Positions 54,105-62,864 of a stretch of DNA of 64,000 nucleotides are shown here, piece after piece. Each line of letters starts with the position of its first letter. Position 1 is the first letter of the stretch. The notes beneath the pieces are model-generated. The model did no database searches and was not told the DNA's origin. It was given only the letters and a program-made list of their open reading frames with translations. Source of the stretch: Chthonomonas sp. (lineage in GTDB: Bacteria > Armatimonadota > Fimbriimonadia > Fimbriimonadales > Fimbriimonadaceae). The DNA is taken from contig JAEURQ010000002.1 of assembly GCA_016788425.1 (NCBI GenBank), forward strand, positions 930,001 to 994,000, in the 5' to 3' direction. A program made the position numbers and the translations under genes.

Positions 54105-54126
54105 GAGTTGAGTGCTCCATACGCAC

Positions 54127-55191
54127 ATGGCGCAAGATTTCTATCGTGTTCTGGAACTAGATCGCAAGGCCGACGACAAGGCGATTAAGGCTGCGTTCCG
54201 TCGCCTCGCGCGCAAGTATCACCCCGACCTGAACCCTAACGACAAGGCCGCTGAGGCCAAGTTTAAGGAGATCAACAACGCGCACGAAGTGCTGAGCGAT
54301 CCCGAGAAGCGCAAGCTCTACGACCAATACGGCGACAACTGGGACAAGGTGCAGGCCGGCGGCGGAGATTTTGGCGACGGCATGAACTTCGGCGGCGGCG
54401 GATTGGAAGACATCTTCGGCGCAATGTTTCAGAACTTTGGCAGCACTCGCGAGGCGGGCCGACGCCAAGCCTCGGTGCCTCCGCGCGATGTCGTGCAACC
54501 CGTGGACATGACGCTGGAAGAGCTCGACAAGGGTACCAAGCGGACCCTGACTTACCAAGTGGACGACGCCTGCAAAAGCTGCAGCGGCACCGGCCAAGTG
54601 CGCATGCGCGCGGCCCACGATTGCCCCGGCTGTCGCGGCACGGGCCGCGTCAGTGGCGGGCTGTTTGGTGGCGCGGCCACCTGCCCCGAGTGCGATGGCA
54701 CCGGCAAAACAAACTTCGAAAAATGTCCTTCGTGCCGCGGCACCGCGGTTTCCAAAACCACCAAAAAGGTGGAAGTGACGATCCCTGCGGGCATCTCGGA
54801 CGGCAAGAAACTGCGCGTGCCCGGGCGCGGTGGTGTCGGCACGACCGGCAAGGCGGGCGACCTCTACGTGGTCATTCGCGAGCTTCCGCACAACCAGTTT
54901 AAGCGGGTCGGCGAAGACCTCCAAACCGAGGTTGAGGTTCCGTTTACGACCGCCGCCTTGGGCGGAGAAATTTCTGTGCCGACTCTGCGTGGCAAGGTTT
55001 CGATGCGCATTCCCGAACTTTCGCAGTCGGGCCAAACGTTCCGGCTCGCCGAGCAGGGCATGGCCAAGCTCAAGGGCGGTCGCAGCAACCTCATGGTGAA
55101 GATCAAGCTGGCGATGCCCAAGACTTTGACCGCCGAGCAGCGCGAATTGCTGAGGAAGCTGGCCGCGCTGGAGGTGGAACATGCCCGATGA
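54127..55191 (+). CDS. dnaJ: chaperone DnaJ
   Basis: This protein has about 354 residues from the ATG at 54127 (MAQDFYRVLELDRKA). The J domain has HPD in YHPDLNPND. A Gly-rich linker follows, then a zinc-binding region with CKSCSGTG, CPGCRGTG, CPECDGTG and CPSCRGTA (last Gly changed to Ala), and a C-terminal substrate domain. DnaJ stimulates DnaK. Neither dnaK nor grpE is next to it, unlike in actinobacteria. It overlaps hspR by 11 nt and has a HAIR operator. Confidence 0.95.
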   Translation: MAQDFYRVLELDRKADDKAIKAAFRRLARKYHPDLNPNDKAAEAKFKEINNAHEVLSDPEKRKLYDQYGDNWDKVQAGGGDFGDGMNFGGGGLEDIFGAMFQNFGSTREAGRRQASVPPRDVVQPVDMTLEELDKGTKRTLTYQVDDACKSCSGTGQVRMRAAHDCPGCRGTGRVSGGLFGGAATCPECDGTGKTNFEKCPSCRGTAVSKTTKKVEVTIPAGISDGKKLRVPGRGGVGTTGKAGDLYVVIRELPHNQFKRVGEDLQTEVEVPFTTAALGGEISVPTLRGKVSMRIPELSQSGQTFRLAEQGMAKLKGGRSNLMVKIKLAMPKTLTAEQRELLRKLAALEVEHAR

Positions 55192-55582
55192 CGGGCAGCC
55201 GGTCTACATGATCGGCGTCGCCGCCCAGCTGTGCCAAGTCCATCCGCAGACCCTGCGGCAATACGAGCGGATCGGGCTCGTGGTGCCGTCGCGAGTCGGC
55301 TCCAAAAACCGCCTCTATAGCGAAGCCGATATTCGCCGCGTGCAACGCATTCAACGCCTGACCCAGAGCATGGGCGTGAACCTCGCCGGCGTGGAGATTA
55401 TCTTGCGACTGCTGGACGATATGGACGAGCTTCGCCGGGACATGGAGACGCAGTTTGAGGAGTTCCGCCTGGAAGCCGAGCGCCGGATTCAGGACCTCGC
55501 GAGCCAAAGCAACCTACCCGTGCGCCGCGACGAGCAGCTTCTACCAACGCGCCAAATTCAGTGGCGTCGCCCCGAAATCTAA
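55181..55582 (+). CDS. hspR: heat-shock repressor HspR (MerR family)
   Basis: This 133-residue protein has a MerR-type DNA-binding domain: VYMIGVAAQLCQVHPQTLRQYERIGLVVPSRVGSKNRLYSEADIRRVQRIQRL (residues 8-60). A coiled-coil-like helix follows (DDMDELRRDMETQFEEFRLEAERR). GGAGG lies 9 nt before the ATG. HspR represses dnaK/dnaJ-type operons through HAIR elements, and one is present upstream of dnaJ, so dnaJ-hspR should be heat-inducible and autoregulated. Confidence 0.93.
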   Translation: MPDDGQPVYMIGVAAQLCQVHPQTLRQYERIGLVVPSRVGSKNRLYSEADIRRVQRIQRLTQSMGVNLAGVEIILRLLDDMDELRRDMETQFEEFRLEAERRIQDLASQSNLPVRRDEQLLPTRQIQWRRPEI

Positions 55583-57976: not shown

Positions 57977-58020
57977 TAGGTTACACCACCAATTGTTGGC
58001 GTGGCGTTAAATCTCAGGCG

Positions 58021-58033: not shown

Positions 58034-59485
58034 ATGCCGAGTTTGCCGCAAAGAATCATGGGCGTGGAAACTGAGTTTGGTTGCCTGGTTCGCGATCCTG
58101 ACCTCATGAAACCCGCCGAGGCGGTGGAGACGGTGAAAAACGCGGCGTTCTACGATTTGAAAATCGGCGCGCTCGACCTGCACGCCCGCGACGAAGTCTT
58201 TGAACCCGCCCGCTCGGGCGGGTTTTTGCGCAACGGGGCGCGGCTCTATATTGATAACGTCGGCTCTCACCTGGAATACGCCACCGCCGAGTGTCTCGGC
58301 CTGCGCGACCTCATCGCAAACGACCGCGCCGGACAACGCCTGGTTTTGCGCGCGCTCGCCGAAAGCGGGCTCGGCGACGAGGTGGCCTTCTACAACAATT
58401 CGGTGGACCACTTCGGCGGGCACACGTTCGGCTGCCACGAGAATTATCTGGCCCACGTGGACGACGAGTTCTTTGCGCACCGCCTGGAGTTCATCCTTCC
58501 CTTTTTGGTGACGCGACAGATATTCGCCGGTGTGGGGCGGGTCGGCGGACACGTGCTCAGCGATGGCAACCGTCGCCCCACCTTTGACGAGGTGATGCAG
58601 AACCCGGTGGACTACATTTGGGTGAGCAACGTGTACCAGGTGGACCCGGACGAGACGGTTGACTTTCAGATCAGTCAGCGCGCCGACCACATTCTCAAGG
58701 TTGCGGCCAGTCGCGTGCGCTTCAACCGCGCGATGATCAATCCCAAGTGGGAGCACTTTTACGATCACGACGAGTTTAAGCGGCTGCACATTTTGTTCGG
58801 CGAGGCCAACCAAAGCGAGTATGCCTACGCGCTCAGGGTCGGCACCACGGCGCTGGTGCTTCGCCTCAGCGAAGAAGGTTTCTTGACCGATCAAGGGATG
58901 ATTATGAACAACCCGATTTTGGGTTTGCGGCAAGTCAGTCGCAACCTCGGGCTCGACACCAAACTCGGCGGACCCAACCTCAAGCCGAGCGATATTCAGC
59001 GACGCTTTTTGGAACTCGCCGACCAGGAGTATCGCGGTGAAACCGACGAAACCGACTGGGTTCTGCGCGAATGGGCGCAGACGCTCGACGATCTGGATCG
59101 CGACCCGCTAAGCCTGGGTCACAAGCTCGATTGGGTGGCCAAGTACACGATGATTCGCGACTTCACCGAGAGCGAGAACCTCACCTGGAAGGACGACATA
59201 TGCCACTCGCTGGATATGGAGTACCACAACATCGATCCGCAGCAGTCGCTCTACTACGCATTGCCCCACCGCGAGCGGCTCACCACCGAAACGGACATCG
59301 TGAACGCCATGTCCGAAGGGCCTGCCGATACCCGCGCCCGCGTGCGAGGCCAGCTCGTGGCGAAGGCGATGGAACTGCGCCCACCCAACAGCTATACGAT
59401 CGACTGGGATGGGGTGGCGCTGGGCCGCAACGAGTACTACGATCTCGCCGATCCCTACGGAACCGAGCTACAGCGGGACGAGTAA
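58034..59485 (+). CDS. Dop/PafA family Pup ligase or depupylase homologue
   Basis: This protein of 483 residues belongs to the family that attaches (PafA) or removes (Dop) the ubiquitin-like tag Pup. Visible motifs are RIMGVETEFG (metal Glu at 12), GARLYIDNVGSHLEYATAEC (catalytic-base Asp about 74), FGCHENYL, FLVTRQIFAGVGRVGG and RVGTTALVL. The DDLDRDPLSLGHKLDWVAK stretch is Dop-like, and VGSHxEYATAEC is PafA-like. The usual NTRDEPHAD segment is replaced by NPKWEHFYDHDEF (about residue 236). No pup, proteasome or mpa gene is in the window, so direction of activity is open. Confidence 0.88.
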   Translation: MPSLPQRIMGVETEFGCLVRDPDLMKPAEAVETVKNAAFYDLKIGALDLHARDEVFEPARSGGFLRNGARLYIDNVGSHLEYATAECLGLRDLIANDRAGQRLVLRALAESGLGDEVAFYNNSVDHFGGHTFGCHENYLAHVDDEFFAHRLEFILPFLVTRQIFAGVGRVGGHVLSDGNRRPTFDEVMQNPVDYIWVSNVYQVDPDETVDFQISQRADHILKVAASRVRFNRAMINPKWEHFYDHDEFKRLHILFGEANQSEYAYALRVGTTALVLRLSEEGFLTDQGMIMNNPILGLRQVSRNLGLDTKLGGPNLKPSDIQRRFLELADQEYRGETDETDWVLREWAQTLDDLDRDPLSLGHKLDWVAKYTMIRDFTESENLTWKDDICHSLDMEYHNIDPQQSLYYALPHRERLTTETDIVNAMSEGPADTRARVRGQLVAKAMELRPPNSYTIDWDGVALGRNEYYDLADPYGTELQRDE

Positions 59486-61364: not shown

Positions 61365-62864
61365 ATGAAACGAGCCCTCACAACTTCGCTTTTCGTCGCC
61401 GCACTCGGTAGTGCGTTCGCGGCCCCTCTTACAGCTGGCAACGTGGTTGTCGTTCGCTTCGGCGACGGCGCGGCCGCCCCGACCACTGCTTCGTCTGCGG
61501 TATTCCTTGACGAATACACCCCGCTTGGTCTGCCGGTACAAAGCATCGCCCTTCCCGCCAGCGGCGCCAATCGCCACACCAACACCGGTACCTCGACCAG
61601 CGAAGGCCAACTCTACATGAACGAGAACAAGTTCTCGCTGATGGGCTACGACCTGGACGCCGGCGCCGCCAGCCCGGGCACCACTTCGAACCTGACGACC
61701 GACGCTGATCCCGTCGAGCGCGTGGTTTCGATCATCAACCTTGCTGGTACGGTCGATTCCTCGACTCGCCTCGTTAACATCTTCAGCGGCAACGCTGCTC
61801 GCGCGGCCATCGTCAGCGGCACCAAGGTGTACGTCGGCGGCAGCGGCGGCTCCACCGCCAACGGCGCTCTTCGCGGCACGATTCTCGCCACGATTGGTAG
61901 CCCGACCACGACGGCAGCCGACGTGATCAACACGGAAATCACCAATATCCGTACGCTGCAGATCTTCAACGGCCAACTCTACATGAGCTGCGGTTCAGGC
62001 GTGCCCTTCCACGGTGTCAACTCAGTTGGTACTGGCACCCCCACGGCTGCGGCAACGCTGACAAATCTGGCTAACACCGGATCCGGCGGCAACCCGGTCA
62101 ACGGTTCGCCGTACGACTTCGAAATCGTGGGCAACACGATGTTCGTGGCCGACGACCGCACCTCGGGCGGCATCCTGAAGTACACCTTCTCGAGCGGCGT
62201 CTGGAGCTTCGACTCCACCCTGACGGTGGCCGCTGGCGTTGGCGCCCGCGCAATCGCTAAGGCGAGCTCCGGCTACTTCGTGACCGGCACCGACAACCAA
62301 ATCTACTCGTTCGACGGCGTTTCGTCGTTCGCTTCAATCGTTGCGGGTGCAGCGAACACCAACCTGCGCGGCATCGGCGTCGTTCCGGGTTCGGTCGGCG
62401 GCTCCATCAGCGGCACCGTGAACCTCGGCAGCTACGTTGGCACGGCCTCGGGCTCGGCCAGCGTTACGCTGAACTACCAAATCACCGATCTCTCGGACAA
62501 CGTATTGAGTTCGGGCACCGTCTCGGTCACCCCGTCGGGCGGCGTGGCTCCTTATTCGATCAGCGCTGGTTCGGCGACCGGATCGGTCAAGGTGAAGCTC
62601 TCGGGCGGCACCTGGCTCAAGCGATCGGCCACCACCACGGTGGGCGCGGTCAACGCCAACATGACGTTGCCGAACGGTAACGTTGCTCTCGACGGTTCGT
62701 TCGAACTGATCGACGTGGCCGACTACTCCGGTCTCGCCGCTGCCTTTGATGGCGTGGAAGGGGATGGCACCTACGCCGCTCGCGCCGACCTCAACAAGGA
62801 TGGAATCGTCGACATTGCTGACTACACCATCTTGGCTGGTAGCTTCGACCTGACCGACGAATAA
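61365..62864 (+). CDS. secreted protein with dockerin-type calcium repeat
   Basis: This 499-residue protein has a signal peptide (about 1-19, ending AFAA). A long beta-rich body follows, possibly a propeller. Near residue 345 there is a GSVGGSISGTVNLG domain start like carboxypeptidase-regulatory folds, and the C terminus has two dockerin-like loops (VADYSGLAAAFDGVEGDG, then DLNKDGIVDIADYTILAGSF). GTGGAG precedes the ATG. The function is unknown. Similar secreted proteins are common in relatives with PEP-CTERM systems. Confidence 0.72.
   Translation: MKRALTTSLFVAALGSAFAAPLTAGNVVVVRFGDGAAAPTTASSAVFLDEYTPLGLPVQSIALPASGANRHTNTGTSTSEGQLYMNENKFSLMGYDLDAGAASPGTTSNLTTDADPVERVVSIINLAGTVDSSTRLVNIFSGNAARAAIVSGTKVYVGGSGGSTANGALRGTILATIGSPTTTAADVINTEITNIRTLQIFNGQLYMSCGSGVPFHGVNSVGTGTPTAAATLTNLANTGSGGNPVNGSPYDFEIVGNTMFVADDRTSGGILKYTFSSGVWSFDSTLTVAAGVGARAIAKASSGYFVTGTDNQIYSFDGVSSFASIVAGAANTNLRGIGVVPGSVGGSISGTVNLGSYVGTASGSASVTLNYQITDLSDNVLSSGTVSVTPSGGVAPYSISAGSATGSVKVKLSGGTWLKRSATTTVGAVNANMTLPNGNVALDGSFELIDVADYSGLAAAFDGVEGDGTYAARADLNKDGIVDIADYTILAGSFDLTDE

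Follow-up and report, generated by a model that had tools for sequence, protein, structure and literature searches.

All of the published mechanism that we found for the Pup_ligase family comes from the actinobacterial ligase PafA and its relative Dop. In crystal structures, R227 of Dop, which corresponds to R207 of PafA, holds the phosphate, and R201 of C. glutamicum PafA touches the C-terminus of Pup (PMC8599861, from which the role of Dop H241 is also taken). The R193A mutant of M. smegmatis PafA is inactive (PMC7947786); by the 14-residue offset in the table of that paper, R193 is R207 of C. glutamicum. UBact is a tag whose status as known we take from its Pfam and NCBIfam models and from PMC11354881, where it is mentioned in one line.

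Here we study a gene in a window of 64,000 nucleotides (the whole stretch of DNA analysed) from Chthonomonas sp., a member of the Armatimonadota. The original prediction described its product as a Dop/PafA homologue with a changed NTRDEPHAD segment and mixed features of the two enzymes, and proposed that it may be a third branch with a different tag or substrate. As judged from its sequence, the product is most likely the enzyme that attaches the UBact tag to proteins for destruction.

Family assignment and active-site residues

The open reading frame (Table 1) comprises 483 codons with an ATG start at 58034; an alternative in-frame GTG start at 58001 gives 494 amino acids. Its product matches Pup_ligase (PF03136) with 382 bits over 455 residues, from position 1 to 440 of the 441 in the profile, and thus exceeds the curated cut-off of 25 bits over its full length, which establishes it as a Dop/PafA homologue. 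The mixed resemblance is real as well: the NCBIfam models for PafA (TIGR03686) and Dop (TIGR03688) give 268 and 250 bits, under their equivalog cut-offs of 551 and 492 bits, and the best matches in the PDB, by sequence and by fold, are Dop first and PafA second. Full-length orthologues with 50–64% identity to the window protein occur in 95 other genomes of the order. Many of these genomes have the changed motif in their orthologues, and the window sequence is therefore neither a chance match nor a sequencing error.

The GhExE motif and the catalytic aspartate are present, as had been claimed for the metal glutamate and this aspartate, and G10, E12, E14 and D74 are invariant among relatives in a 30-sequence alignment. 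Y72, R232, N236 and H252 are also intact and invariant among relatives; R232 aligns with R201 of C. glutamicum PafA. One residue is inserted after the catalytic aspartate (DNVGSH versus D-VGSH in actinobacterial PafA). All 56 distinct orthologues of the phylum have this extra residue, the segment reading DAVGSH in 54, DAVGDH in one and DNVGSH in the window protein, so that the asparagine noticed earlier is real and is particular to this protein.

The segment that reads NTRDEPHAD in PafA and Dop is indeed altered: residues 236–248 are NPKWEHFYDHDEF, of which residues 236–244 read NPKWEHFYD. Aligned position by position, the segment is less altered than it looks, its key positions keeping the asparagine, exchanging arginine for lysine, and remaining acidic at the glutamate. 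The alpha-loop reads ASRVRFN versus SSATTRS in actinobacterial PafA, and the actinobacterial pattern of alpha-loop and NTRDEPHAD is not matched.

Table 1. Features of the predicted ligase gene and of its partner genes. Positions without a contig prefix are those of the window; residues are numbered as in the window protein.
Feature	Position	Strand	Evidence or remark
pafA-type gene, predicted UBact ligase	58034..59485	+	PF03136, 382 bits; orthologues; UBact-ligase clade, support 99
ExE metal/ATP motif, E12 and E14	58067..58075	+	invariant in 30-sequence alignment
Catalytic Asp D74, then extra residue N75	58253..58258	+	all other orthologues (55 of 56) have Ala instead of N75
Alpha-loop RVRFNR, residues 227-232	58712..58729	+	R227 and R229 clade-specific
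NPKWE (residues 236-240), where PafA and Dop have NTRDE	58739..58753	+	K238 aligns with PafA R207 / Dop R227
Conserved His H252	58787..58789	+	aligned with Dop H241; invariant in 30-sequence alignment
Dop-type paralogue	C4:49212-50474 (L003:9204-10601)		NTRDEPHA, DHGHPE, Dop-loop
ARC/Mpa-type ATPase	C1:332819-334327		TIGR03689, 435 bits, under equivalog cut-off of 505
20S alpha, prcA	C2:55266-55835		44% identity to the operon-linked alpha of a relative, E 1e-42

Elsewhere in the window, positions 54112-55582 hold an apparent dnaJ-like gene and, after it, a regulator of the MerR type that resembles HspR; they lie upstream of the ligase gene, at a distance of about 2.5 kb. A secreted-looking protein with a C-terminal dockerin-like repeat (DLNKDGIVDIADYTILAGSF) lies at 61365-62864.

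The UBact–proteasome gene set of the genome

The genome that we searched (2.67 Mb in 4 contigs, 99.9% complete) contains exactly two PF03136 genes, the window gene and one on contig C4. In the product of the latter, a long segment (WDY...EHPRRDLRGF) corresponds in the alignment to the Dop-loop of the actinobacterial enzyme. Directly downstream of this Dop-type gene are a UBact reading frame of 61 amino acids, with the C-terminus RQRSGE, and a 20S beta gene; the 61-residue product scores 77.8 bits against PF20513 (cut-off 27.8) and 74.6 bits against NF033388 (cut-off 35). The ARC/Mpa-type ATPase falls under the TIGR03689 cut-off of 505 bits, as does the operon-linked ARC/Mpa ATPase of a relative (445 bits). 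For the second PF00227 match, at C2:55314, an identity as HslV was considered and rejected, the search with an operon-linked 20S alpha subunit identifying it as prcA. Classical Pup (PF05639) was not found in the genome.

The earlier statement that no Pup, Mpa or 20S genes lie nearby therefore holds within the window and fails for the genome, in which UBact, the ARC/Mpa ATPase, prcA and prcB are all present and only the search for classical Pup came back empty. We conclude that the UBact–proteasome system is complete and split over four loci, one of which is the window. The window gene in this genome is not linked to the UBact tag gene; since dop, UBact and prcB on C4 are found in the same genome as prcA and the ARC/Mpa gene, the window gene would be the ligase-side (PafA-type) partner. 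A UBact system can thus be complete with its genes at four places, and searches limited to a window or to an operon will miss it.

Ligase or hydrolase

In a tree of 97 sequences, all UBact-linked ligases, including the window protein, form one clade (SH-aLRT 99), the ligases of Armatimonadota and Bipolaricaulota form one subclade (support 99), and the UBact-linked Dop sequences cluster with a support of 92. When the motif columns and the region of the catalytic aspartate are left out, the subclade of Armatimonadota and Bipolaricaulota still has a support of 99, and on this motif-free tree the proline that replaces threonine at position 206 corresponds to one change of state. The NP-type substitution arose once, in the clade with support 99. 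The M. tuberculosis PafA reference, which entered only the residue table and the motif-free tree, matches C. glutamicum PafA from end to end (543 bits). Among the Dop sequences, those of Bipolaricaulota (L128, L157, L179) are nested among those of Armatimonadota (support 96), a position suggesting that the UBact operon was transferred from one phylum to the other.

Approximately unbiased (AU) tests were made on a tree in which Actinobacteria were represented by just 2 sequences of PafA and 3 of Dop; with this sample, neither the grouping of actinobacterial PafA with Dop (p-AU 0.57) nor that of Dop with the window clade (0.38) is rejected, and three arrangements of UBact ligases, UBact Dops, actinobacterial PafA and actinobacterial Dop are indistinguishable. 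Orthology of the window protein to actinobacterial PafA has a support of 25 in a quick tree. The window branch thus has no firm place within either of the two actinobacterial enzymes, in keeping with the original prediction.

Independently of the tree, we compared the window protein at the 22 positions that discriminate PafA from Dop (PMC7947786). It has about 10 PafA states, including F54, G66, S67, A72, A74, H188 and D439, and none of the Dop-only states at these positions; the remaining positions, many of them in the alpha-loop, match neither enzyme. In the alignment, the Dop-loop before strand 2 is absent from the window protein and present in the C4 paralogue. The missing Dop-loop and the balance of states both point to PafA.

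The AlphaFold2 model of the window protein (mean pLDDT 84.6, pTM 0.89) matches Dop with Z 46 and 36% identity and PafA with Z 40 and 33% identity, in both cases over the whole length. Its alpha-loop lacks a helix and in this is Dop-like, but since the pLDDT of the loop is about 70 and residues 240–245 are poorly predicted, we regard the shape of the modelled loop as weak evidence. The higher Z and identity to Dop, the loop without a PafA-type helix, and the grouping of Dop with the window clade that the AU test leaves standing (p 0.38) would all agree with a second hydrolase (a depUBactylase) or a bifunctional enzyme. We nevertheless consider such an enzyme improbable, given that the window protein has no Dop-loop whereas the genome already has a true Dop with one, that PafA states outnumber Dop-only states by about ten to none, and that a tagging system needs a ligase, for which the genome offers no other member of the family.

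Distribution among relatives

The pattern NP[KR][WR][DE] is found in 56 of 56 distinct orthologues of the phylum, as NPKWE (36), NPKWD (18), NPRRD (1) and NPKRD (1), and Dop-type sequences have NTRDE in 122 of 122 cases. The substitution is thus common to the whole clade and not peculiar to the window gene; of the outcome that the original prediction named as its own refutation, the part concerning the clade has come true. The seemingly unique NPKW-type stretch is shared by nearly all relatives in Armatimonadota and Bipolaricaulota.

We searched named genomes for UBact loci with a degenerate UBact pattern. The matches listed include loci from Verrucomicrobiota, Latescibacterota, Bipolaricaulota, Gemmatimonadota and Armatimonadota. 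Nitrospirota is a phylum with UBact; no Nitrospirota loci are among the matches listed for this pattern. In Bipolaricaulota the ligase-type neighbours of the UBact loci have NPKWD, and the neighbour in an outlying genome of Armatimonadota has NPKSD. In Latescibacterota and Verrucomicrobiota the arginine of the UBact ligases is retained, the motif reading N[TA]RDEPL, together with DM-GH, and so the UBact tag alone does not require the change of motif.

Outside the family of the window organism, most of the loci examined have the order dop–UBact–prcB–prcA–pafA, with prcA next to pafA. In the best-annotated relative the genes form a single operon, ARC-dop-UBact-prcB-prcA-pafA, with the ATPase upstream of dop and prcA adjoining pafA. 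We sampled 251 genomes of the phylum and found PF03136 in 150 of them and UBact in 137; both occur in 137 genomes, PF03136 only in 13, UBact only in none, and neither in 101. Two genomes of one genus in the family of the window organism (G181 and G185, 1.5 Mb) lack both, which suggests that the whole tagging system was lost with genome reduction.

This distribution bears on the proposal of a third branch. Part of it stands, since the protein lies outside any firm placement in actinobacterial PafA or Dop and its predicted tag is UBact rather than classical Pup; but the gene is the non-Dop member of a dop and pafA pair, there is no third paralogue, and the protein is not peculiar to this genome. 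A tag or substrate unrelated to UBact, which the distance from the tag gene and a motif unlike that of PafA and Dop might suggest, is very improbable, because orthologues share an operon with UBact in relatives, UBact is always accompanied by the PF03136 family in the 251-genome sample, and classical Pup was not found in the genome.

Other genomes of the phylum have PF03136 but no UBact. At L255:9396-14234 (G005), L256:75-9371 (G219) and L257:4360-9601 (G053), long divergent Pup_ligase-family proteins stand in tandem and adjoin a proteasomal-type AAA ATPase (3 of 3 loci). A JAB-domain protein is encoded in L255 and L256 and a ThiF/E1-like protein in L256; a small reading frame of L255 (13833-14234), with no match in Pfam, reads as a ubiquitin-like beta-grasp protein with the C-terminus SISAG. 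These three loci form a separate system, which is a stronger candidate than the window gene for a further branch with a different tag. The PF03136 members at L259:4127-10406 (G132), L260:4559-6130 (G217) and L261:3610-6428 (G215), with about 520–550 amino acids, are very divergent (E 1e-15 to 1e-30), that of L259 adjoining an AAA ATPase; no UBact match was found in these three genomes.

Changes in catalytic residues

We number residue changes as in C. glutamicum PafA. All UBact ligases lack the alpha-loop threonines T197 and T198 and have valine or isoleucine, then arginine or glutamine. The ligases of Armatimonadota and Bipolaricaulota additionally have A196R, T198R, T206P, R207K (24 of 25) and D208W (22 of 25), with D or E at position 209 and mostly tyrosine or phenylalanine for H211; R201 and H221 (Dop H241) are unchanged. 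The arginine replaced in this NPKW clade is conserved in the remaining UBact, PafA and Dop sequences examined.

The simplest reading of R207K would be an active enzyme in which lysine preserves the positive charge. Compensation for the lost arginine may come from the two arginines gained in the alpha-loop, a suggestion that derives from a single branch of the tree. A stronger version, in which the phosphotransfer centre of these ligases is changed, with lysine in NPKW, the two loop arginines take over the role of the lost arginine, and a Dop-like loop shape is kept together with ligase function, we hold to be possible but rather unlikely; if true, it would contradict the view that ligation depends on a helical alpha-loop and on the conserved set Thr-Thr...Arg. 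A catalytically dead, degenerate paralogue, which the inactivity of mycobacterial R193A (PMC7947786) could suggest, is scarcely credible for the only ligase candidate in the genome, with a motif fixed in 56 orthologues, lysine or arginine always at that position, and all other checked catalytic residues invariant.

Discussion

In all likelihood, the window gene encodes the ligase of the UBact–proteasome system, and by analogy with PafA we infer the following mechanism. The ExE cradle would bind ATP and metal, and the enzyme would phosphorylate the C-terminal glutamate of UBact; since UBact ends here in ...RQRSGE, a deamidation step would be unnecessary. D74 would then assist the attack of a substrate lysine, giving an isopeptide bond that the C4 Dop homologue would reverse, and the tagged proteins would be degraded by the ARC/Mpa ATPase and the 20S core. 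In Armatimonadota and Bipolaricaulota, the phosphate-binding arginine is replaced by the lysine of NPKW[DE], and the two gained alpha-loop arginines may share its role.

Several observations count against a UBact ligase: the PafA score of 268 bits against an equivalog cut-off of 551, the AU test, which leaves PafA with Dop (0.57) or Dop with the window clade (0.38) unrejected, and the absence of linkage to the tag gene in this genome. In addition, the alpha-loop, the main discriminator of ligase and hydrolase, mostly matches neither enzyme and is predicted without a helix, and the modelled fold appears slightly nearer to Dop than to PafA.

UBact is a tag described before; what stands out as unstudied is the rewriting of the catalytic arginine motif throughout the clade, and the interest of the finding lies in how a ligase works with this motif rewritten. 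The alpha-loop threonines and the catalytic arginine are replaced in enzymes that, by gene content, are the only available ligase. With the NPKW clade, nature offers an experiment on the question of which residues of the active site ligation truly needs.

Comparison with known systems

With the UBact systems of Gram-negative phyla (PF20513, NF033388), the system described here shares the tag family, the Dop partner, the 20S subunits and ARC/Mpa, and its ligase belongs to one clade with those of Verrucomicrobiota and Latescibacterota. It differs in that Armatimonadota and Bipolaricaulota have NP[KR][WRS][DE] in place of NTRDEP and extra residues after the catalytic aspartate, and in that the operon is split into four loci in the window genome. 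Actinobacterial PafA (4b0t, 4bjr; TIGR03686) has the same fold, ExE, R60, Y62, D64, R201, N205 and H221, and like the window protein has no Dop-loop; however, T197/T198 are Val/Arg in the window protein, R207 is Lys, D208 is Trp and H211 is Phe. Dop (4b0r, 5lrt; TIGR03688) is the closest match in fold, its R227 aligning with K238 and its H241 with H252, but the window protein lacks the Dop-loop, DH(A/G)HPE and NTRDEPHA.
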